Positions 6,815 to 63,952 of a stretch of DNA of 64,000 bases are shown here, piece after piece. The notes under the pieces were generated by a model, which was not told the origin of the DNA, ran no database searches, and saw nothing but the letters and a program-made list of their open reading frames with translations. This DNA is from Arenibacter sp. 6A1 (GTDB lineage Bacteria; Bacteroidota; Bacteroidia; Flavobacteriales; Flavobacteriaceae), in NCBI RefSeq assembly GCF_012272855.1, contig NZ_JAAXCQ010000015.1:1-64000 (forward strand), written 5' to 3'. Every line of letters starts with the position of its first letter. Within the stretch, counting starts at the first letter, position 1. A program made the translations under genes and the position numbers.

Positions 6815-7405
6815 TTGGATAACAAAGATTGTTTTGAAAAATTATGGGTAGTGAACCTACGAAATGGTGATAATAAAGCATTTCGAAAACTTTTTGACAC
6901 GTATCGCAATGATATTTACACCTATAGTTACAGTTTGGTTAAAAATTCACAGATTGCCGAAGAAATTGTACAAGAGGTTTTTTTAAAGGTTTGGTTAGGC
7001 AGGGAAACTTTAAATCCGGAGTTATCATTTAGAGCATTTATTTTTACGATTACACGGAACCATACTTTTAATTTTCTGAAAAAAGCGGTAAACGATAAAA
7101 AACTAAAAGATGCTGTTTTTTATCAAAGTCAAAACTTGGATAGTTCCCTTGAAGATCAAATATATACGGCAGAATACGAAATTCTTCGAAAAAAAGCCAT
7201 TGATCAGCTTCCAACAAAACGTAAGCGCATTTTTCAAATGTCCAGGGAAGAGGATAAAAGCTATTTAGACATAAGCAAGGAGTTAGGGATTTCAGTGAGT
7301 ACAGTTAAAGGCCAAATGAATAAAGCACTTTCTAGTATTCGTACTTTTTTAACCTATAATAGTGACCTAACGCTGTTAGTTTCATTTTTAGTCTTCCAAT
7401 CATAA
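6815..7405 (+). CDS. ECF-type RNA polymerase sigma factor (FecI/SigW-like, Bacteroidetes group)
   Basis: A 196-residue sigma-70 family protein. Region 2 is seen at ~20-90 (AFRKLFDTYRNDIYTYSYSL, AEEIVQEVFLKVW), region 4 at ~130-180 (QLPTKRKRIFQMSREED, then a helix-turn-helix around YLDISKELGISVSTVKGQM). The start is a TTG codon; no in-frame ATG lies near the beginning of the conserved domain. It precedes a FecR-like anti-sigma gene and SusC/SusD in the same direction, the standard layout in which glycan uptake by SusC signals through FecR to free the sigma factor. The target promoters are inferred to be the local SusC operon. Confidence 0.9.
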   Translation: MDNKDCFEKLWVVNLRNGDNKAFRKLFDTYRNDIYTYSYSLVKNSQIAEEIVQEVFLKVWLGRETLNPELSFRAFIFTITRNHTFNFLKKAVNDKKLKDAVFYQSQNLDSSLEDQIYTAEYEILRKKAIDQLPTKRKRIFQMSREEDKSYLDISKELGISVSTVKGQMNKALSSIRTFLTYNSDLTLLVSFLVFQS

Positions 7406-7570: not shown

Positions 7571-8743
7571 TTGGAGCTAGAGCATAAAGAGACTCAAGTA
7601 TTGTTGCGAAAATTTGTTTTGAACCAATGTAATGAGGCCGAAGTTGAAAGGGTAATCTCATATATTAAGGAATCTCAGGCTTCAAATAAATTACCAACGG
7701 TTGAAGAAGTCAAAGTCCTGTTAGAGGCACAACCATTAATGACTGACATTGCGGCCGACAGTATTTTTAATAACATTATAAGTCCCGAAAATTCAAAGGA
7801 TGGTCCTATAGTACAAAGAAGGAGTACACGGCTTTGGAAGTACACCTCCGTAGCGGCGACCATTTTGCTATTCATTGGATTGGTTGTTAAACAAAACATT
7901 ATTTCTAATGAATCCGAGAATTTTTCACCACCTAAAAACCAATCGGTTACCTTGGAATTGGATAATGGGAAAATAAAAGTCCTTGAGCAGAATACGACCG
8001 TTCAGATTACCGACAAACCTGGAAATATCGTTGGTACTCAAAAAGGAAACGAGTTAAGTTATAGCAACACAAACGATGTCAAAGAATTGGAATTTAACAC
8101 CCTTAGGGTCCCATATGGAAAAAAGTTTAATGTAGAACTCTCAGATGGTACCAAGGTTTTCCTTAATTCGGGAACCGTTTTAACTTTTCCAATTAAATTT
8201 TTAAAAGGAAAAGAAAGACAGGTATTCTTGAGCGGGGAAGCCTTTTTTGATGTTTCCAAAGATTCTTTGCATCCCTTCATGATAAATTCTAACGATTTAA
8301 AAGTGTCCGTATTGGGGACTAAATTTAATATGGCTTCTTACCAAGAAGATCAAGCCAGTCAAGTAGTTCTTGTAGAAGGGTCTGTGAAATTGTCCGCCAA
8401 TAAAGAGTTACTGAAAAACGGCCAAACTACTATTTTGGAACCAGGCTTTAAAGGGAGTTTTGATAAAGAGAAAGGGGATTTTACCACTGAAAAAGTACTC
8501 ACGAATATATACACCTCCTGGATGGATGGGGAGCTTGTTTTTAGGGAAGTGACTTTTAATAATATCCTTAAAAAATTGGAAAGACAATTTGATGTGACAA
8601 TTCTTAATGAAAATAAAGTGATGGCTAAAGAAAAGTTTAATGCTAGTTTTAAGGATAATTCACTTCCTAAGATCCTGGAATATTTTAAAACTTTTTATGG
8701 AATACAATATACAATAAGTGATAACGAAATAACCATTAAATAA
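7571..8743 (+). CDS. FecR-family anti-sigma factor
   Basis: A 390-residue inner-membrane regulator. The N-terminal ~90 residues are cytoplasmic and would bind the sigma factor; one membrane segment follows at ~92-112 (SVAATILLFIGLVV). The periplasmic FecR domain spans ~180-275 (NTLRVPYGKKFNVELSDG, FLSGEAFFDVSKD, VSVLGTKFNM), and the C-terminal DUF4974 domain ~310-390 (FREVTFNNILKKLERQFDV). The start is TTG, as for the sigma gene before it. It lies between the sigma gene and SusC, and is the expected signal relay from the outer-membrane SusC protein. Confidence 0.9.
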   Translation: MELEHKETQVLLRKFVLNQCNEAEVERVISYIKESQASNKLPTVEEVKVLLEAQPLMTDIAADSIFNNIISPENSKDGPIVQRRSTRLWKYTSVAATILLFIGLVVKQNIISNESENFSPPKNQSVTLELDNGKIKVLEQNTTVQITDKPGNIVGTQKGNELSYSNTNDVKELEFNTLRVPYGKKFNVELSDGTKVFLNSGTVLTFPIKFLKGKERQVFLSGEAFFDVSKDSLHPFMINSNDLKVSVLGTKFNMASYQEDQASQVVLVEGSVKLSANKELLKNGQTTILEPGFKGSFDKEKGDFTTEKVLTNIYTSWMDGELVFREVTFNNILKKLERQFDVTILNENKVMAKEKFNASFKDNSLPKILEYFKTFYGIQYTISDNEITIK

Positions 8744-8832
8744 GAAAACCAATCCATGTGCCTATGAAGTAAAAAAAGAATAACAATACTTAAGTATCGA
8801 TCATATACTGTTCCTGAACGGGAATAAAAAGA

Positions 8833-8862
8833 AGTCGGAAAATGCTGGCACATTTTCCGACT
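8833..8862 (+). promoter_or_regulatory. Conserved leader hairpin upstream of susC (copy 1)
   Basis: A perfect 12-bp stem, AGTCGGAAAATG pairing with CATTTTCCGACT, closes a 6-base loop CTGGCA. It ends 53 bases before the SusC start codon in the FecR-SusC gap. The same structure, with a compensatory G-C to A-T change, precedes the second SusC gene at 32974-33003. There is no T-run behind it, so it does not look like a simple terminator. Confidence 0.7.
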
Positions 8863-8915
8863 GAATAGACGTGGTCATTAATTATTTAACAAACACAGTT
8901 TAATTTTACAAAAAT

Positions 8916-11900
8916 ATGAAAAAACTTCTAATAAGAAGCAGCAGCCCCTATGCATTAAGTAAACTCAGCCTAAAAATGAAGTTAAGTACCCTTTTTATGT
9001 TTGCATCTTTTTTTATGATGCAGGCCAATACTACTTATGCCCAGCGTACCAAGACAAGCTTAAACATTAAAGATGTTCCATTGGAAACATTACTGGAACA
9101 TATTGAAAGCAATACAGATTTTAGATTTGTTTATAAGTTAAAAGATGTTGATTTACAGCAAAAAGTGACAGTAAAGGCCAATAACAAGTTGGTGCCTTTT
9201 ATATTGGATGAGGTTTTAAAGGAGGGTTCTACAGCTTATGAAATTTTAGACCGGCAAATTCACCTCTATAGTAAAGGTAAAAAGAAAAAACTCCCCTTTA
9301 GAGAAAAACAAGAAGTGAAAATTGTTCAAAATGAACAATATGAAATTACCGGAACAATAGTGGATACCGATAATTTGCCATTAGGTGGAGCTTCTATCCT
9401 AATAAAAGGGACCACTAATGGCGTGGCTACTGATTTTGACGGGAATTTTAGTATCGAAGTTGTAAAAGGTGATGAGCTTGTGATATCATATCTAGGATTT
9501 AAAACCAAGGAGATTACTATAACAGACCAAATACATTTAGATATAATATTAGAATCTTCTAATGAACTAGAGGAAGTGGTAGTTGTGGGATATGGGGTAA
9601 AGAAAAAAATAAATTTATCTGGAGCCGTCGGGGTCGTTGATTCAAAAATTATTGAAAATAGACCTGTTAACAGTGTAGCAGCCGCACTACAAGGAAGTAT
9701 TGGAAACTTGAACATTGCCCCAGGTAGTGGAAGAGCTACCGATGCGCCCGCTATCAATGTAAGAGGATTTGGAACTTTAAGTGGAGGAGGAAATCCTTTG
9801 ATTTTAGTTGATAATGTAGCTGTAAGTGAGCAAGAAGTATCATGGTTGAACCCTAATGATATTGAAAGTGTGTCTGTTTTAAAAGATGCGGCTTCTGCAG
9901 CAATATACGGCGCACGGGCAGCTTTTGGCGTGGTGTTAATTACGACAAAATCGGCAAAAGAAGGCGATGTTAATAAACCAAAAATAACTGTAAACGGTTA
10001 TAATACCATTCGTTCAATTAGACGGTTGCCAAAGTTGATTACCGATCCCTATACGGTAATGTCTTATAAAAATGTGATGGCTAAACCGTGGTATAATTTA
10101 TACAATCAAGATCATTTAGATTATGCCCAAATGCGTTCCGATGATCCAAGTATTCCTGCGGTTGTTTTAAATGAACAAAACAAAGAATATTGGATGTATT
10201 ACGGAACTACAGACTGGATGTCAGAGGCCTACAAAAACAGCTCCTATAGCCAAAACGTAAATACAACCATCTCTGGTGCAAGTGATAATGTTCGCTACTA
10301 TTTGTCCGGACAGTTTTTTAATCAAGAAGGTGCTTTTAAATACGGTGAAGATGTGTTGACTCGGACGAATCTTCGTGCCAAATTAGATATAGACCTTACT
10401 CCATGGTTAGCAGTGAATTCTAATATCTCCTATATGCACAGTAGGTATGAAGAGCCTGTCGATGGTACTTGGAGTTATTTTCACGGAATAAATAGGATAC
10501 CAACATTGTCCGTACCTAAAAATCCGGACGGGTCATGGACACAAGATGGAGCGTGGGCGTTTGGAAGGCTTTCTGATGGAGGTAGAAGAAAGGAAGATCG
10601 CAGTTTTGTTCAACTCACTACTGGACTAAAGGCAACACCATTAAAAGATGAGGCCTTATCACTGAATGTAGATTTCTCTAGTAAAACAATGAACAGTTAT
10701 ACTAAAAGCTTTAGAGTACCAGTAGAATATAAACTAGGACCTACTGTGGTAAAAGAACTTAATAACGGAAATTCGTCTGTAGGTGAAATTAATTCAAGGG
10801 ATAGTTATTTTGTTTTTAATGGATATGTAGACTATACGAAATCGTTTGGGAACCATGAGGTTCAAGGTTTATTAGGAGTGTCCAGAGAGTTCAATCGCTT
10901 TGGGAACAATGCAATAAATAGAGGTGGTCTTTTAAATTATAGTATTCCAAGTGTAGATCTGGCAATAGACGATCCGACCGTAGAAACGGATACAAGGGAA
11001 TGGGCAATAAACAGTATGTTTTATCGCCTAAATTATACCTTTAAATCTAAGTATATTTTGGAGTTTAATGCTAGGGAAGATTATTCTTCTCGGTTTGCAG
11101 AAGGTAGTAGAAAGGCATTTACACCTTCGGGATCGGTAGCTTGGATCGTTTCCAATGAACCGTTTTTTAAAGATGCCGTTCCTTTGGCAAATCATTTAAA
11201 ACTGAGAGGGTCGTACGGAACTTTAGGAAATCAAAATGTAGGTGAATATTCCTATATACCTAACATGGGGAGTGGGCGAACTAGTGTGATTCTTGACGGT
11301 GCACAACCTGTATATATGAGTCCTCCGGGATTAGTGGATGCCAATATTACTTGGGAAGAAGTAACAACTACAAACTATGGGGTTGATATTAATTTCATGA
11401 ACAATAAACTTACTACTTCTTTTGATCTGTACAGGCGCGAAACTGTGGGAATGTTAACTAAAGGCCAATCTTTGCCGGGAGTTTTAGGAGCCCCAGTACC
11501 AGTACAGAATGCAGCCGATTTGAAAACAAAGGGGTTCGAGCTTGGATTGGCCTATCGAAATAGTTTTCAATTAGGAGCAAATCCTTTAAATTTTTCCGCA
11601 AGATTTGTTTTGTCGGACAACAGAACCTTTATTACCAAATTTGAAAATCCAACCGGAACCTTAGATGACTTTTATGTAGGGAAGGAATTAGGAGAAATAT
11701 GGGGGCTTACCAATGCGCCATCTTTTTTTCAAACTCAAGAAGAGATTGACAATCATGCCGATCAAACAGCCGTAACAAGTTACCCGGGGACGAGACCTAT
11801 TGAACCAGGAGATCTAAAATTTGAAGATCTCAATGGCGATGGCTATGTTAATTGGGGGGACTGGACTTTAGAAGATCACGGTGATTATAAGGTTATTGGT

Positions 11901-12398
11901 AACAACAATAACAGGTATTCCTATAGCTTAGATCTTTCAGGGGATTATAAAGGCTTCGATTTTAGGGCCTATATGCAGGGAGTCGCTAAAAGAGATTATT
12001 ATCCTGGACCAGGTCAACACTATTTTTGGGGAATATATGCCCAACCTTGGTCTAATATTTATGCCGCTCACTTAGACAACTGGTCAGTTGAAAATCGCGA
12101 TGCCTATTTTCCGAGGTTGAAATCATATATAGCTGAAACAGGACGTGATTTAGGTATCTCACAAACCAAATACCTACAAAATGCAGCATATTTTAGAATG
12201 AAAAACATAACCATAGGATATTCAATTCCTAAAAAAGCAGCTAATAAGGCCGGCATGGATAAGCTTCGGTTTTATGTAAGTGGAGAAGACATTTTTGAAC
12301 TTACTAAACTGGTTAAAAGATTGGATCCTGAGGGCTTGGATGGAAGATCTTATCCTTTTCAAAGAGCGTATTCATTAGGCGTAAATATTATGTTTTAA
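8916..12398 (+). CDS. SusC/RagA-family TonB-linked outer-membrane protein
   Basis: A 1160-residue TonB-dependent transporter. The signal peptide lies at ~25-43 (ends TTYAQ). An STN (secretin/TonB short N-terminal) domain at ~48-120 shows it belongs to the signalling class that talks to FecR. A carboxypeptidase-regulatory-like domain follows (~143-213, ITGTIVDTDNLPLGGASI, FDGNFSI), then the plug domain (~225-350, RGFGTLSGGGNPLILVDN, SVLKDAASAAIYGARAAFGV) and the barrel to a C-terminal aromatic residue (VNIMF). It would import oligosaccharides across the outer membrane with the SusD protein encoded 17 bases downstream. Confidence 0.95.
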   Translation: MKKLLIRSSSPYALSKLSLKMKLSTLFMFASFFMMQANTTYAQRTKTSLNIKDVPLETLLEHIESNTDFRFVYKLKDVDLQQKVTVKANNKLVPFILDEVLKEGSTAYEILDRQIHLYSKGKKKKLPFREKQEVKIVQNEQYEITGTIVDTDNLPLGGASILIKGTTNGVATDFDGNFSIEVVKGDELVISYLGFKTKEITITDQIHLDIILESSNELEEVVVVGYGVKKKINLSGAVGVVDSKIIENRPVNSVAAALQGSIGNLNIAPGSGRATDAPAINVRGFGTLSGGGNPLILVDNVAVSEQEVSWLNPNDIESVSVLKDAASAAIYGARAAFGVVLITTKSAKEGDVNKPKITVNGYNTIRSIRRLPKLITDPYTVMSYKNVMAKPWYNLYNQDHLDYAQMRSDDPSIPAVVLNEQNKEYWMYYGTTDWMSEAYKNSSYSQNVNTTISGASDNVRYYLSGQFFNQEGAFKYGEDVLTRTNLRAKLDIDLTPWLAVNSNISYMHSRYEEPVDGTWSYFHGINRIPTLSVPKNPDGSWTQDGAWAFGRLSDGGRRKEDRSFVQLTTGLKATPLKDEALSLNVDFSSKTMNSYTKSFRVPVEYKLGPTVVKELNNGNSSVGEINSRDSYFVFNGYVDYTKSFGNHEVQGLLGVSREFNRFGNNAINRGGLLNYSIPSVDLAIDDPTVETDTREWAINSMFYRLNYTFKSKYILEFNAREDYSSRFAEGSRKAFTPSGSVAWIVSNEPFFKDAVPLANHLKLRGSYGTLGNQNVGEYSYIPNMGSGRTSVILDGAQPVYMSPPGLVDANITWEEVTTTNYGVDINFMNNKLTTSFDLYRRETVGMLTKGQSLPGVLGAPVPVQNAADLKTKGFELGLAYRNSFQLGANPLNFSARFVLSDNRTFITKFENPTGTLDDFYVGKELGEIWGLTNAPSFFQTQEEIDNHADQTAVTSYPGTRPIEPGDLKFEDLNGDGYVNWGDWTLEDHGDYKVIGNNNNRYSYSLDLSGDYKGFDFRAYMQGVAKRDYYPGPGQHYFWGIYAQPWSNIYAAHLDNWSVENRDAYFPRLKSYIAETGRDLGISQTKYLQNAAYFRMKNITIGYSIPKKAANKAGMDKLRFYVSGEDIFELTKLVKRLDPEGLDGRSYPFQRAYSLGVNIMF

Positions 12399-31032: not shown

Positions 31033-31623
31033 TTAAATTACTTTTGAGGGATCCTTTCCAAATACTATCATCATTATAATTTTGTATTTTTTTCCCAAAC
31101 GATCCCTAAGAATTCCATACGCCTTGGTAATTTGAGCTTCTACATTTTTAAGGGAAACGTTGAGGTATGCGGATATTTCACTATTGGTGAGGCCTTCTTT
31201 TTTGCTAAGAATAAAAATCTGTTGGCATTTAGGGGGTAGTTGTGAAATTTCTTTTGAAATCTGATCAAGGATCCGTTCAAAAGAGTGGTCGTCTTGAAGG
31301 AGAACCGCTTTCTCCAAACTGTTGAAATATTTTTGCTCCAAGACCATGGTAGATCTCTTTTTCTTGTATTGATTGATAAATTCGTTATAAACCGACTTAA
31401 ACAAAAAGTTCTGTAAGGAGGAGTGGATATCTAGTTTTTTTCGTTTTACCCAAGTTTTTAAAAACACATTCTGAACAATGTCCTGGGATTGTGCGTGGTC
31501 ATGGGTCAGGCTTAAGGCATACCCGAACAATCGCTTGCTATAAAGATCTACCAAGGACACATAAGCCTTTTCTTCTCCCTTTTTTAGGCGATAGATCACT
31601 AGGCTGTCTTCATTGTTTTTCAT
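31033..31623 (-). CDS. ECF-type RNA polymerase sigma factor (second set)
   Basis: A 196-residue sigma-70 family protein. Region 2 at ~15-85 (AYVSLVDLYSKRLFGYALSL, SQDIVQNVFLKTWVKRKK) and region 4 at ~125-180 (QLPPKCQQIFILSKKEGLTN, SEISAYLNVSLKNVEAQITKA) are clear. Unlike the first locus, it is transcribed away from its FecR partner, with a shared promoter region at 31624-31752. The predicted role is control of the divergent FecR-SusC-SusD operon. Confidence 0.92.
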   Translation of the reverse strand: MKNNEDSLVIYRLKKGEEKAYVSLVDLYSKRLFGYALSLTHDHAQSQDIVQNVFLKTWVKRKKLDIHSSLQNFLFKSVYNEFINQYKKKRSTMVLEQKYFNSLEKAVLLQDDHSFERILDQISKEISQLPPKCQQIFILSKKEGLTNSEISAYLNVSLKNVEAQITKAYGILRDRLGKKYKIIMMIVFGKDPSKVI

Positions 31624-31660: not shown

Positions 31661-31752
31661 TAAAAGTGTTGGCTTCTACAAATATCGAAAAAAATTAACA
31701 AAAGATTAGGGTATTGCTATTTTGCTTTGTCATTACTATAAAAAGAAAGGCT

Positions 31753-32898
31753 ATGTCGAATCCAGAAATGGAACACCTGATTGTTAAATATTTATCGAAT
31801 TCCGCTACTGCTAAGGAATTGGATCTATTGTCAGACTGGATACTTATTAAGGGCAACCAAGAAGTGTTGGATACCTATGTAAAATCGCATCTGGAAATAA
31901 TGACTACTATAAACAAACCCGATACAGATAGGATAAAGGACAATCTTTTACGAAAGATTAGGAGAGATAAAAAGATAAGGAGGCTTAGGTCGGCAATGAA
32001 ATATGCTGCCGTTGTGGTAATGCTCTTATCGCTTGGGTATTATTTACAGTTACAGGTTTTTACAAAATCAGAGGCCAATTTAGAACCCAAGGACGAATTT
32101 ATTACCATAACGTTGGAGAATGGAGCAATAGAAACGCTGAGTCCGGTTGAAAATAAAAAAGTAAAGGATGCCAATGGGAATATTATCGGTACCCAGGACA
32201 AATCTAAACTGGTCTATTCCAACTCCTCAAAAACAGAAAAATTGGTTTATAACACCTTAAAGGTACCTTATGGGAAGCAGTTTGATCTCATATTATCTGA
32301 TGGTACCCATGTGTTTTTAAATTCCGGAACCTCCCTAAGATACCCTGTGGCGTTTGTAAAGGGTAGGGAACGAAGCGTTTTTTTAACGGGAGAAGCTTTT
32401 TTTGAGGTTGCCGAGGACAAGGAACATCCATTTATAGTGAATGCCAATGATATGGAAGTAAAGGTGTTGGGGACAAAATTTAACGTTAGCCATTACCCCG
32501 AGGATCCTAATATCCAAACGGTATTAGTAGAAGGGTCCGTATCCCTACAGCTAAAAAATGGTGAAAATTCCCAATTCGGTCCCACCATATTGGCACCGGG
32601 ACACAAAGGGGAGTGGCGCAAAAACGAAAACGGAATATCGGTAGAAAATGTAGATACCAATCTGTATACCGCATGGGTACAAGGAAAATTGGTATTTAGG
32701 AACACGAGTTTTAAAGCTATCAGAAAAGCGCTGGAGCGCCGCTATAACCTAACCATCATAAATAAAAACCCCGTTTTAGACGATCAGGTGTTCGACGCCA
32801 CGTTTGATATTGAGACCATAGAAGAGGTGTTAGAATCGTTCGGTAAAAGCTATGATATAGCCTACACTATCAAAAATAATGAAGTGATCATAAAATAA
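31753..32898 (+). CDS. FecR-family anti-sigma factor (second set)
   Basis: About 381 residues from the ATG at 31753 (MSNPEMEHLIVKYLS); the frame is open 39 bases further upstream, but that extension is hydrophobic and atypical. The cytoplasmic N-terminal domain (~1-75) precedes a membrane segment (YAAVVVMLLSLGYYLQL). The FecR domain contains YNTLKVPYGKQFDLILSDG, FLTGEAFFEVAED and VKVLGTKFNVSHY. The C-terminal DUF4974 domain starts near VFRNTSFKAIRKALER. It is divergent from the sigma gene and upstream of SusC. Confidence 0.92.
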   Translation: MSNPEMEHLIVKYLSNSATAKELDLLSDWILIKGNQEVLDTYVKSHLEIMTTINKPDTDRIKDNLLRKIRRDKKIRRLRSAMKYAAVVVMLLSLGYYLQLQVFTKSEANLEPKDEFITITLENGAIETLSPVENKKVKDANGNIIGTQDKSKLVYSNSSKTEKLVYNTLKVPYGKQFDLILSDGTHVFLNSGTSLRYPVAFVKGRERSVFLTGEAFFEVAEDKEHPFIVNANDMEVKVLGTKFNVSHYPEDPNIQTVLVEGSVSLQLKNGENSQFGPTILAPGHKGEWRKNENGISVENVDTNLYTAWVQGKLVFRNTSFKAIRKALERRYNLTIINKNPVLDDQVFDATFDIETIEEVLESFGKSYDIAYTIKNNEVIIK

Positions 32899-32973
32899 TT
32901 AACAACAACCTTAAAACCATGCTCAATGAATAGAACCTTTTAGAGAACAACAATCAGATCATTTGGAAAATAA

Positions 32974-33003
32974 AATCGGAAAATGCGGACACATTTCCCG
33001 ATT
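32974..33003 (+). promoter_or_regulatory. Conserved leader hairpin upstream of susC (copy 2)
   Basis: AATCGGAAAATG pairs with CATTTCCCGATT (11 of 12 pairs) around a 6-base loop CGGACA. It ends 48 bases before the SusC start. Arm length, loop length and position match the copy at 8833-8862; the second pair is A-T here and G-C there, a compensatory change. Confidence 0.7.
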
Positions 33004-33051
33004 AAGAACAAAATGATTTAAACCAGTTAAACCAAATAACATTCCAAAATT

Positions 33052-36000
33052 ATGAAAAAACTCTTTAATCTATGGGGTGCCTTGTGTTGCCCTTTTAAAC
33101 TAAGCTTAAAAATGAAACTCACGGTACTGTTGACCATCGTATCCTTGTTTCAGACTCAGGCAAATTCCTATTCTCAGAACAAGGAAATCTCTTTAGATAT
33201 TTCCAATGTCAGTTTGGAAACGGTGATCAACCAAATTGAGGCTGTATCCGAATTTAAATTTCTGTTGAACAGGAAGGACGTAGACCTGAATAGAAAGGTT
33301 TCTATTCGTGTAAAGAAGGAAAAGATCACTACAATCCTAACAGAGTTGTTTGCGAATACCAATGTGGCCTTTGAAGTATTGAACAAACAAATAATTCTAA
33401 AAAAGAGGGAGGTAATGATGCAGTCTTCCCAAAAATCAGGGAAGGAAAATACCTTAAACCCATCAATACAGTATCAGGTATCTGGAACTATTGCAGATCA
33501 ACAAGGCCAACCCCTACCGGGAGCGAATATTGTTGAAAAGGGAACCACTAACGGAGTTACTGCAGACTTTGATGGGAATTTTTCCCTGGCGGTGGCCAAT
33601 GAAAATGCGGTCCTGATTATTTCTTATATTGGATATGCAACCAAGGAAGTAGCGGTAAACGGACAAGCTAAGCTTTCTGTGCTATTAAATGAAGATGCAT
33701 CTGCCTTGGATGAGGTGGTTATTACTGGCTATAGCGCAGAACGAAAAAGCGACCTAACAGGGGCAGTAGCCATAGTGGAGATGGATGAAGTTGTAAGTCA
33801 ACCTGTTGCCAGTGTTGATAATATGTTGCAAGGAAGGGTTTCGGGTGTAGAATTAGTAAGTTCCGGTGCTCCTGGAGGTGCAAGTACACTAAGGATCAGA
33901 GGATATAGTACTATCAGAAATAACGATCCGCTATACGTAATTGACGGGGTTCCTACAACTACGGGAATCAACTTGATCAACCCTAATGATATTGCTTCCT
34001 TACAAGTTTTAAAGGATGCTTCTTCTTCTAGTATTTACGGTTCAAGGGCTGCCAACGGAGTGGTTATCATCACCACAAAAAAGGGTAAATCCGAAGTTGT
34101 TAAGGTGTCTTTTGACATGCATACTGGAATACAAAATGCGAACAATTTGCCTAATAATTTAAATGCGCAAGAGTATGGAGACGTATACTGGCAAGCCTTT
34201 AATAATGATGGTATTACCCCTTCCCATGGTGTTTACGGAAATGGAGCCTCCCCAATAATTCCTGCATTTTTGGATGCAGCGAACACCATTCCTTCGGCCA
34301 ATACCGATTGGGTAGCAGAAATTTTTGACCCGGCAATTATTCAATCATATAATTTGAACTTTTCTAAAGGAGGTGAAAAATCGCGTTCTATGTTCTCCTT
34401 AGGTTACTTTGATCAGGAGGGAACTTTGAAGAATACTGATTTTAAAAGAATTACAGCGCGCCTTAATTCTGATTATAAATTGTTTAACGATAAAGTTACC
34501 GTTGGTGAGAATTTAACTGTCGCATACTCCAACTCGGTTGGTACTAATACCAATTCGCTCCTAGGAAATGCTGTTTACGATGCATACCGTATTCCAAGCA
34601 TTGCCCCTATATATGATATTAACGGGGATTTTACCGGATATCCGCTTTCCGATGTTCAAAATCCCTTGGGAAACTTAGAGCGTAACAAATACAATGATGT
34701 AGACAATCTTCGTGTCTTCGGAAATGTTTTTTCTGAAATTCAGCTTTTTAAAGATTTAACATTCAAGACTAATTTCGGGATCAATTATAGTACCCTTAAA
34801 GGCACCGTTTTTAATCCTTCCTATAAAGAACCTAATGCCCAAAGAGCAATAAACAGCTTATCGATCAGGGACGAAGTGAAATGGGATTGGGTATGGTCTA
34901 ACACGCTCAACTATTCGAAAACAGTAAATGAAAAACATAATTTCCAAGTACTGTTAGGTATAGAAAGTATAGAGAACTTATATGAAGTTACTACAGCTTC
35001 TATAGATGATCTGCCTACGAATGAGCTTAATATACGTGTGTTAAACGCAGGTGATCAGGGCACACAGACCAATACAGGGGACAAAATAGAGTACTCCTTG
35101 TTTTCTTATTTCGGCAAACTAAATTATAGTTTTGACAATAAGTACTTGTTTTCAGCTACTTTGCGTCGGGATGGGACTTCCAAATTGTTAAACAATCGCT
35201 GGGGGACTTTTCCGGCATTGTCGGTAGGGTGGAAGATCTCCGAAGAAGATTTCTTTAATAACGATGGGGCTGTCTCCAATTTAAAATTAAGAGCTGGATG
35301 GGGATTAACGGGAAACCAGGATATTCCCGCATACCAAACTGTTTCAGGATTTAGCAGTAATCCCTTTTATTCCAATTATGCTATAAATGGTTCTCAAAAC
35401 AGCACACAAACAGGATTTACACTATCTAGAATTGCAAACCCTGATTTAAAGTGGGAAACTACCACACAAACTAATATAGGTTTGGATTTTGGAATTTTGG
35501 ATAATTCGATAACCGTTTCAGCCGATTATTTTATAAAAAACACAGATGACCTATTGTTATTTAAAACCCTTCCCGCAGACCAGTCCGGTATAACCAATCG
35601 AGGACAATGGCAGAATGTTGGAGAAATGCAAAACAAAGGATTTGAATTGGCTGCGAGTTATCAGAGTGATTCAAAAAAAGACTTTAATTATGAGGTAGGG
35701 GCTAATTTTTCAGTAATCGATAATAAATTATTGTCCTTAGGAGAAGGGATAGATTTTATTGAGACTGATCCGGGAGTTTTGCATAATGTTAATTTTGACC
35801 AATCAACTTCCAGAACGGGAATAGGGCAACCAATAGCTTCTTTTTATGGTCATGTGGTGGATGGGATTTTTCAAACTGATACAGAGGCTGCATCCAGCAG
35901 TCAGTCTAGTGCAAAGGCAGGGGATTATAAATTTAGGGATTTGAATGGAGATGGATCGATTAATGATGCTGATAGGACGTACATAGGATCGCCCCATGCC

Positions 36001-36513
36001 GATTTCACTTATGGTATAAATTTTTCTGCTTCTTACAAAGCTTTTGATTTTACACTCTTCTTTCAAGGCTCGCAGGGAAATGATATATATGATTTGTCGC
36101 GTTATTATAGTGATTTTTTCAATTTGGCAAATTATAACAAAAGTGGGCGTATTTTAAATGCATGGACTCCGCAAAATACTGATACCGATTTGGCTCGGGT
36201 TTCTCTTAATGACCCCAATAATAATATACGCCCCTCTTCTTTTTATGTACAGGATGGTTCCTATCTACGATTAAAGACATTGCAAGTAGGATATTCATTT
36301 CCAGAAAGTATTGCTCAGAGAATTAAAGCATCCCAGGTAAGGATATATTTGGAGGCCTACAATTTACTAACTATTACGGGCTATGAAGGATTAGACCCTG
36401 AGATTGGTCTTCAGAATTATGATTCTGACGAGCGAAATTTAGATATAGGCGTGGACAGGGGGATTTATCCTAGTTCCCAAACATTTACATTTGGTATTAA
36501 TCTTAATTTTTAA
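33052..36513 (+). CDS. SusC/RagA-family TonB-linked outer-membrane protein (second set)
   Basis: A 1153-residue TonB-dependent transporter with a signal peptide (LTVLLTIVSLFQTQANSYSQ), an STN domain (~45-115, ISNVSLETVINQIEAVSEF), a carboxypeptidase-regulatory-like domain (~140-215, VSGTIADQQGQPLPGANIV) and the plug (LRIRGYSTIRNNDPLYVIDG, LQVLKDASSSSIYGSRAANG). The barrel ends in INLNF. The sequence belongs to a different SusC subgroup from the one at 8.9 kb. It pairs with the SusD gene 11 bases downstream. No hydrolase is linked, so its glycan cannot be inferred. Confidence 0.95.
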   Translation: MKKLFNLWGALCCPFKLSLKMKLTVLLTIVSLFQTQANSYSQNKEISLDISNVSLETVINQIEAVSEFKFLLNRKDVDLNRKVSIRVKKEKITTILTELFANTNVAFEVLNKQIILKKREVMMQSSQKSGKENTLNPSIQYQVSGTIADQQGQPLPGANIVEKGTTNGVTADFDGNFSLAVANENAVLIISYIGYATKEVAVNGQAKLSVLLNEDASALDEVVITGYSAERKSDLTGAVAIVEMDEVVSQPVASVDNMLQGRVSGVELVSSGAPGGASTLRIRGYSTIRNNDPLYVIDGVPTTTGINLINPNDIASLQVLKDASSSSIYGSRAANGVVIITTKKGKSEVVKVSFDMHTGIQNANNLPNNLNAQEYGDVYWQAFNNDGITPSHGVYGNGASPIIPAFLDAANTIPSANTDWVAEIFDPAIIQSYNLNFSKGGEKSRSMFSLGYFDQEGTLKNTDFKRITARLNSDYKLFNDKVTVGENLTVAYSNSVGTNTNSLLGNAVYDAYRIPSIAPIYDINGDFTGYPLSDVQNPLGNLERNKYNDVDNLRVFGNVFSEIQLFKDLTFKTNFGINYSTLKGTVFNPSYKEPNAQRAINSLSIRDEVKWDWVWSNTLNYSKTVNEKHNFQVLLGIESIENLYEVTTASIDDLPTNELNIRVLNAGDQGTQTNTGDKIEYSLFSYFGKLNYSFDNKYLFSATLRRDGTSKLLNNRWGTFPALSVGWKISEEDFFNNDGAVSNLKLRAGWGLTGNQDIPAYQTVSGFSSNPFYSNYAINGSQNSTQTGFTLSRIANPDLKWETTTQTNIGLDFGILDNSITVSADYFIKNTDDLLLFKTLPADQSGITNRGQWQNVGEMQNKGFELAASYQSDSKKDFNYEVGANFSVIDNKLLSLGEGIDFIETDPGVLHNVNFDQSTSRTGIGQPIASFYGHVVDGIFQTDTEAASSSQSSAKAGDYKFRDLNGDGSINDADRTYIGSPHADFTYGINFSASYKAFDFTLFFQGSQGNDIYDLSRYYSDFFNLANYNKSGRILNAWTPQNTDTDLARVSLNDPNNNIRPSSFYVQDGSYLRLKTLQVGYSFPESIAQRIKASQVRIYLEAYNLLTITGYEGLDPEIGLQNYDSDERNLDIGVDRGIYPSSQTFTFGINLNF

Positions 36514-38180: not shown

Positions 38181-38225
38181 ATATCTGATCTTTAAGGATT
38201 TTATGAGTATAAGGAATTATTGTTA

Positions 38226-38261
38226 AATAGGGAGAGAAATAGCGTTTCTCTCCCTATTTTG
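38226..38261 (+). terminator. Rho-independent terminator after the second susD
   Basis: AATAGGGAGAGAAA pairs with TTTCTCTCCCTATT around a short TAGCG loop and is followed by TT. It lies 45 bases past the SusD stop. Confidence 0.85.
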
Positions 38262-63866: not shown

Positions 63867-63892
63867 GATATTTTACGTATAAAATACATCAC

Positions 63893-63927
63893 AAAAAAAG
63901 GATAGCGTTAGGCTATCCTTTTTTTGT
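63893..63927. terminator. Bidirectional terminator after the DegT gene
   Basis: AAAAAAAGGATAGC pairs with GCTATCCTTTTTTT around GTTAG. The A-run and T-run on either side let it serve both the DegT gene and the converging gene at the window end. Confidence 0.9.
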
Positions 63928-63952
63928 GTGTAAAGTGTGTATGTCTTATTTC

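Follow-up and report, generated by a model that had tools for sequence, protein, structure and literature searches.

A hairpin in the fecR-susC junctions of Arenibacter sp. 6A1 is very probably the terminator of a DonS-like antisense RNA

Introduction

FecR-linked SusC systems are a main route of glycan sensing and uptake in Bacteroidota. Two such systems are found in a stretch of 64,000 nucleotides from Arenibacter sp. 6A1 (assembly GCF_012272855.1, contig NZ_JAAXCQ010000015.1, positions 1 to 64,000), hereafter called the window, and in both of them a hairpin stands between fecR and susC. What does this hairpin do, and to the RNA of which strand does it belong? A first-pass annotation had taken it for an RNA structure under selection in the sense transcript, perhaps an element of mRNA processing or stability that lets SusC and SusD be expressed much more strongly than their regulators.

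According to the passages cited, antisense RNAs of 78-128 nt that are divergent to susC form a family in Bacteroides, with DonS as the type (PMC7366714). Fifteen such antisense loci are reported for B. fragilis (PMC9723704) and 32 antisense RNAs associated with polysaccharide-utilisation loci (PULs) are annotated in B. thetaiotaomicron, where these RNAs are reported to correlate both negatively and positively with their loci (PMC10994844). DonS represses its PUL in B. fragilis by a mechanism that the source calls unknown (PMC11697453). The primary sigma factor of the phylum is stated to read TAnnTTTG, which in F. psychrophilum occupies -12 to -5 (PMC7366714, PMC9723704). A literature search covering titles, the beginnings of abstracts, and selected passages returned no description of such RNAs outside Bacteroides.

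Materials and methods

A covariance model was built from the 11 hairpins of the Arenibacter genome and used to collect relatives. The junction set consists of 53 loci, 11 from this genome and 42 from 12 other genomes, with 51 distinct hairpins. Two matches with no long open frame beside the hairpin (L077, at a contig end, and L112) and two matches lying elsewhere (L080 and L111) were left out of the set. L071 was left out for its length from the fold comparison, which covers 52 loci, and both L071 and L105 were left out for length from the comparison of RNA sequences. The start codon in the 53 loci was picked among the in-frame ATGs, ATGAA or ATGGA being preferred.

FecR genes were also surveyed independently of the hairpin by the profile PF16344. 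The survey comprises 156 genes: 75, then 57 of 65 further ones (8 of one genome's 30 being left out), and 24 from B. fragilis S82 (E ≤ 1e-8). A following long open frame is present for 153 of the 156; the first such frame was taken as the next gene and not confirmed as SusC case by case, and close strains were counted separately.

Results

Two hairpins in the window and their counterparts in the genome

The features of both systems are listed in Table 1. Copy 1 of the hairpin has a perfect stem of 12 pairs in 12 and a 6-nt loop, as had been described for both SusC genes; copy 2 has 11 of 12 pairs on the plus strand, and its leftover cell, an A opposite a C, is a G·U pair on the minus strand. 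The compensatory change that had been pointed out between the copies is real, as the second pair of the stem is G-C in copy 1 and A-T in copy 2. The position had likewise been given correctly: the hairpin follows a FecR gene and its end lies about 50 nt before the ATG, the distance from its start being 83 nt in copy 1 and 78 nt in copy 2. The pattern TCGGAAAATG-N4..10-CATTT has three matches in the window (both copies, with copy 1 matching on both strands) versus none in 100 shuffles.

Table 1. Features of the two FecR-SusC systems in the window (positions in the window; RNAs, terminators, and promoter boxes are predictions).
Feature	Position	Strand	Basis or remark
Sigma factor, ECF type, system 1	6815..7405	+	Regions 2 and 4 (Sigma70_r2, Sigma70_r4_2)
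FecR anti-sigma gene, system 1	7571..8743	+	FecR and FecR_C domains
U-tract and predicted 3' end, copy 1	8826..8832	-	Terminator scan
Predicted DonS-like antisense RNA, copy 1, 79 nt, two stem-loops	8826..8904	-	From promoter box and terminator
Predicted intrinsic terminator stem-loop of the antisense RNA, copy 1	8833..8862	-	12-bp stem; sole terminator-like site in 8700-9100, tail TCTTTTTATT
Predicted -7 promoter box TATTTTTG (TAnnTTTG), copy 1	8909..8916	-	First T lies opposite the A of the susC ATG
SusC-type TonB-dependent transporter, system 1; leader covered by the predicted antisense RNA	8916..12398	+	Profile match
Sigma factor, ECF type, system 2, divergent	31033..31623	-	Domain matches
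FecR anti-sigma gene, system 2	31714..32898	+	Domain matches
Predicted DonS-like antisense RNA, copy 2, 74 nt	32967..33040	-	MFE -18.9 on minus vs -10.1 on plus
Predicted intrinsic terminator stem-loop, copy 2	32974..33003	-	Terminator scan
Predicted -7 promoter box TAATTTTG, copy 2	33045..33052	-	Overlaps the susC start codon
SusC-type transporter with STN domain, system 2	33052..36513	+	Domain matches

In the Arenibacter genome PF16344 has 17 matches at E ≤ 1e-3; the 13 at 1e-10 are FecR genes, and the four weak ones fall within transporter frames or those of other genes downstream. Twelve of the 13 FecR genes have a SusC gene behind them, across a gap of 92-172 nt. Such a hairpin is present in 11 of these 12 gaps, and the twelfth (L019/L053) holds a minus-strand terminator that is divergent and has a longer loop. 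Therefore, the paired occurrence of the hairpin is not a matter of chance. When run on this genome at E ≤ 10, the covariance model finds 13 distinct places, 11 of them FecR-SusC junctions and two elsewhere.

The genome has 45 SusC genes above the TIGR04056 cut-off, 33 of which have no FecR gene before them. Among the 18 of these 33 that were examined, none has a terminator on either strand within 150 nt before the start, while in the same test a minus-strand terminator lies 60-130 nt upstream of 10 of 11 FecR-linked SusC genes, the eleventh having the longer-loop one. The stem had been expected to recur before other SusC genes of the genome, and it does so at 11 of the 12 FecR-SusC junctions and before none of the 18 SusC genes examined that lack a FecR gene.

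Several other sequences were noticed. Perfect inverted repeats with 5-nt spacing occur in the window at 63890-63928 (17 bp) and 38225-38259 (15 bp), and are perhaps ordinary terminators. A dispersed repeat with CGGAAAATGCAACGATTTGCATTT or a close variant, followed in several copies by agtgaggggccagctggtgcgttgg, occurs elsewhere in the genome (L005-L010, L012, L013, L016, and L017, all outside the window); it was rejected as a copy of the SusC element, being a different, longer repeat that has the same start and does not stand before SusC starts among the copies examined. In many loci a TGCCTATGAAATRA-like motif recurs between the fecR stop and the hairpin, a short way behind the stop, for example at window positions 8758-8771 and in B. 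fragilis (L320, L327, L333, and L335). It could belong to a sense promoter, and some matches of the motif search fall inside the coding end of FecR.

The strand on which the pairs are kept

Of 60 genomes from the family of Arenibacter, 15 have matches to the covariance model at E ≤ 0.1, the Arenibacter genome included. The 53 junction loci provide 636 stem cells, of which 550 are Watson-Crick pairs, 71 are A·C on the plus strand, 6 are G·U on the plus strand, and 9 are other combinations. The excess of A·C over G·U is seen both in the 11 hairpins of Arenibacter (17 vs 2), which were the training set of the model rather than found by it, and in the 42 relatives that the model found (54 vs 4). 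Therefore, the pairs are kept in the RNA of the minus strand; a sense-strand structure is disfavoured since pairing in the sense RNA would give the reverse ratio. The A·C cells that recur beside the G-C stem, which could have been read as a conserved bulge in the sense RNA, are explained as G·U pairs on the minus strand.

An RNAalifold consensus of 51 minus-strand sequences contains 11 pairs, 10 of which have changes on both sides; in the column pair 61-80, for example, all 51 sequences are paired, as G-U in 24, G-C in 16, and A-U in 11. The covariation that had been anticipated is thus present in an alignment, for the minus strand, and pairing in the sense RNA is left unsupported by it.

The sequence next to the stem has the same polarity. 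At least five A in the 8 nt before the stem on the plus strand, equivalent to a U-tract after the stem on the minus strand, are found in 48 of 53 loci, and at least five T in the 8 nt after the stem on the plus strand in only 2 of 53. On the minus strand the hairpin has the form of an intrinsic terminator, with a G+C-containing stem directly followed by a U-tract, and the terminator scan returns one site for each of the two regions in the window, both on the minus strand, where shuffled sequences lead one to expect 0.2 and 0.3. Minimum free energy is lower on the minus than on the plus strand in 52 of 52 loci. The part of the RNA outside the terminator also folds better on the minus strand, in 49 of 52 loci, with a mean z of -2.75 vs -0.74. 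Copy 1 by itself folds nearly equally on both strands (-22.3 on plus vs -23.6 on minus) because its stem is perfect, and its strand is therefore judged from the U-tract and from the remaining copies.

The hairpin lies 74-87 nt before the ATG in 51 of 53 loci. Five loci (L087, L095, L102, L105, and L110) form another class of junction, where the 5' helix of the predicted antisense RNA stands apart as a strong hairpin of its own; the terminator almost touches the FecR stop codon in some of these.

A predicted antisense promoter over the susC start codon

Across the 53 loci, a minus-strand box of the TAnnTTTG type covers the SusC start codon; its n positions are free and the others nearly fixed. 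The TA of the TATG at the susC start is the beginning of TAnnTTTG read on the opposite strand. TAnnTTT stands exactly at the start codon in 46 of 53 loci and the full TAnnTTTG in 30; with the first in-frame ATG taken as start throughout, the counts are 41 and 26. None of the 18 SusC genes without FecR has TAnnTTT at its start, and the count is still zero if any in-frame ATG is allowed. In the window the box occurs at 2 of 36 open reading frames of at least 150 amino acids, and both window susC genes carry it. The transcription start predicted from the box is at -12 relative to the susC ATG, where the minus strand has a purine in 44 of 53 loci. Upstream of the -7 box, the 53 loci show no conspicuous -33 box.

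The sequence that separates box and hairpin forms a 5' stem-loop when folded as minus-strand RNA. The first-pass annotation had called the leaders around the two hairpins unrelated, which is true in part, as they do share the start-codon box and this second helix on the minus strand. In one locus, L071, the usual susC start and antisense box are present about 80 nt after the hairpin and the frame stops within a few codons; the long frame begins further down, possibly by a frameshift or an alternative start.

A predicted RNA can thus be drawn from box to terminator, running from the susC start codon towards fecR. Its length is 79 and 74 nt in the window; with an 8-nt tail it is 71-84 nt in 51 of 52 loci and 103 nt in one.

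FecR genes surveyed independently of the hairpin

In the survey, 110 FecR genes are followed by a gap of at least 75 nt, and a minus-strand terminator 60-130 nt before the next start is present in 67 of these 110 gaps, compared with any plus-strand terminator in 8; by the criteria used, the other 43 have none on the minus strand. In FecR gaps of less than 75 nt such a minus-strand terminator was found in 0 of 43, partly because there is no room for it. Outside the family of Arenibacter, the box at the start codon accompanies the terminator, being present in 29 of 49 gaps with it vs 3 of 38 without it. The long gaps of Parabacteroides acidifaciens have the terminator in 11 of 20 and the box in 11 of 20, and those of B. 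fragilis S82 have a minus-strand terminator in 14 of 19, a plus-strand one in 2 of 19, and the box exactly at the start codon in 13 of 19. The model of the Arenibacter hairpins matches 8 distinct places in four of five named genomes, and at least four of the eight are just after FecR genes of the survey (three in Parabacteroides and one in B. fragilis).

Discussion

Very probably, the hairpin is where a short cis-antisense RNA ends, acting as its Rho-independent terminator. This RNA would start from a predicted promoter box that overlaps the susC start codon, and would dampen susC. The anatomy of this RNA, consisting of box, 5' stem-loop, terminator stem, and U-tract, is well supported by the sequence comparison. 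The RNA itself is a predicted gene, deduced to be transcribed from its promoter box and terminator, and by analogy it would repress susC. The claim of a selected RNA structure at the FecR-SusC junction thus holds insofar as the structure covaries and is found at 11 of 12 junctions, with a variant at the other; the strand is the minus strand.

By their layout, the predicted window RNAs are best read as DonS-type antisense RNAs outside Bacteroides. Like DonS and the other PUL-associated cis-antisense RNAs of Bacteroides (Cao et al. 2016, J Bacteriol, as cited in PMC7366714, PMC9723704, PMC10994844, and PMC11697453), they are short, lie antisense to the beginning of a susC homolog, and point away from it, and the minus-strand terminator and the start-codon box recur in the long FecR gaps of B. 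fragilis. Their lengths, with both ends predicted, are at the low end of the range given for the DonS family (PMC7366714). Unlike the DonS family, the Arenibacter RNAs belong to another family of the phylum, are known here from sequence alone, and are likened to DonS by layout. The FopS RNAs of B. thetaiotaomicron are similar in that they repress susC translation by pairing near its start, and differ in being 14 paralogs, of which 9 are intergenic and 4 antisense, that act in trans on several loci and are counteracted by RbpB, as stated in the passages of that paper (PMC11697453). A structured RNA motif named Flavo-1 is reported as widespread in Flavobacteriaceae (PMC9723704). In Rfam, the only match of the window at the gathering threshold is a tRNA, and at E ≤ 1 the surroundings of copy 1 have only a sub-threshold match to a plant snoRNA.

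A role in the fecR-susC mRNA, where the hairpin would guide processing or make the susC portion more stable, would agree with the near-fixed distance to the ATG and with a structure under selection. The passages of PMC11697453 imply a leader of about 77 nt for the susC gene BT_3983 of B. thetaiotaomicron, so that the hairpin could lie near a sense 5' end. This sense-strand role is nevertheless very unlikely in view of the ratio of A·C to G·U cells, the weaker folding of the plus strand in every locus compared, and the antisense promoter box that accompanies the hairpin. The terminator reading is better than the mRNA-processing reading because the U-tract, the sole terminator-like site, and the kept pairs are all on the minus strand, and the proposed element boosting SusC is not supported. 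Still less probable, and the least credible of the readings weighed here, is a palindrome acting as DNA, such as an operator or a part of the ECF promoter of susC. One arm contains GGAAAT, which we take to resemble the -35 element of FecI promoters; on the other hand, the outer stem changes its sequence yet keeps its pairs, and the departures from pairing are the strand-asymmetric G·U. A FecI-type promoter within the hairpin was rejected, as no conserved second element stands at a fixed spacing on either side.

Two further possibilities accept the terminator and differ in what is made of the RNA. The terminator might serve only as an insulator that halts antisense transcription leaving susC before it reaches fecR, the short RNA being functionless. 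A terminator alone would account for the stem and the U-tract, and antisense transcription can be pervasive according to the passages of PMC9723704; against this, the start-codon box goes with the terminator outside the family of Arenibacter, minus-strand folding extends to the 5' part of the RNA, and the terminator is absent before the 18 tested SusC genes without FecR, which makes mere insulation quite improbable. It is unlikely, too, that the RNAs form a trans-acting family whose paralogs target one another's loci or share an RNA-binding protein, in the manner of FopS and RbpB. The sequence of the terminator stem and loop is alike between paralogs, and some of those in Parabacteroides and B. 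fragilis resemble them, whereas the middle of the RNA differs between paralogs and each copy lies opposite its own susC leader and therefore has full complementarity to that leader.

For the cis-antisense RNA favoured here, the following scheme can be proposed. Polymerase with the primary sigma factor would start about 12 nt upstream of the susC ATG, head away from susC, and stop at the hairpin, yielding an RNA of about 75-80 nt with complementarity to the susC leader over its whole length. In the absence of the inducing glycan, this RNA may lower the expression of susC and of the genes behind it, by analogy with DonS, through pairing with read-through or leaky fecR-susC transcripts, through collision with the sense polymerase, or both. 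Once the ECF sigma factor is released, sense polymerases would cross the start codon and occlude the antisense promoter, which may result in a sharper switch.

On balance, we lean towards the wider view that DonS-type antisense RNAs are an old and widespread third part of the FecI-FecR-SusC module throughout the phylum rather than a peculiarity of Bacteroides. Their promoter would be built into the susC start codon, such that ribosomes starting on susC, polymerases elongating the sense RNA, and polymerases initiating the antisense RNA would all contend for one set of eight bases, and each duplicated SusC gene would carry the switch with it.

The case also provides a lesson on method: covariation alone can mislead on the strand, because a G·U pair on one strand is an A·C mismatch on the other. 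If the antisense reading is right, control of the kind reported from gut Bacteroides reaches as far as distant relatives and would be predictable from DNA alone, by a minus-strand terminator 60-130 nt upstream and TAnnTTTG over the start codon, and the conserved layout would make the mechanism of DonS testable.
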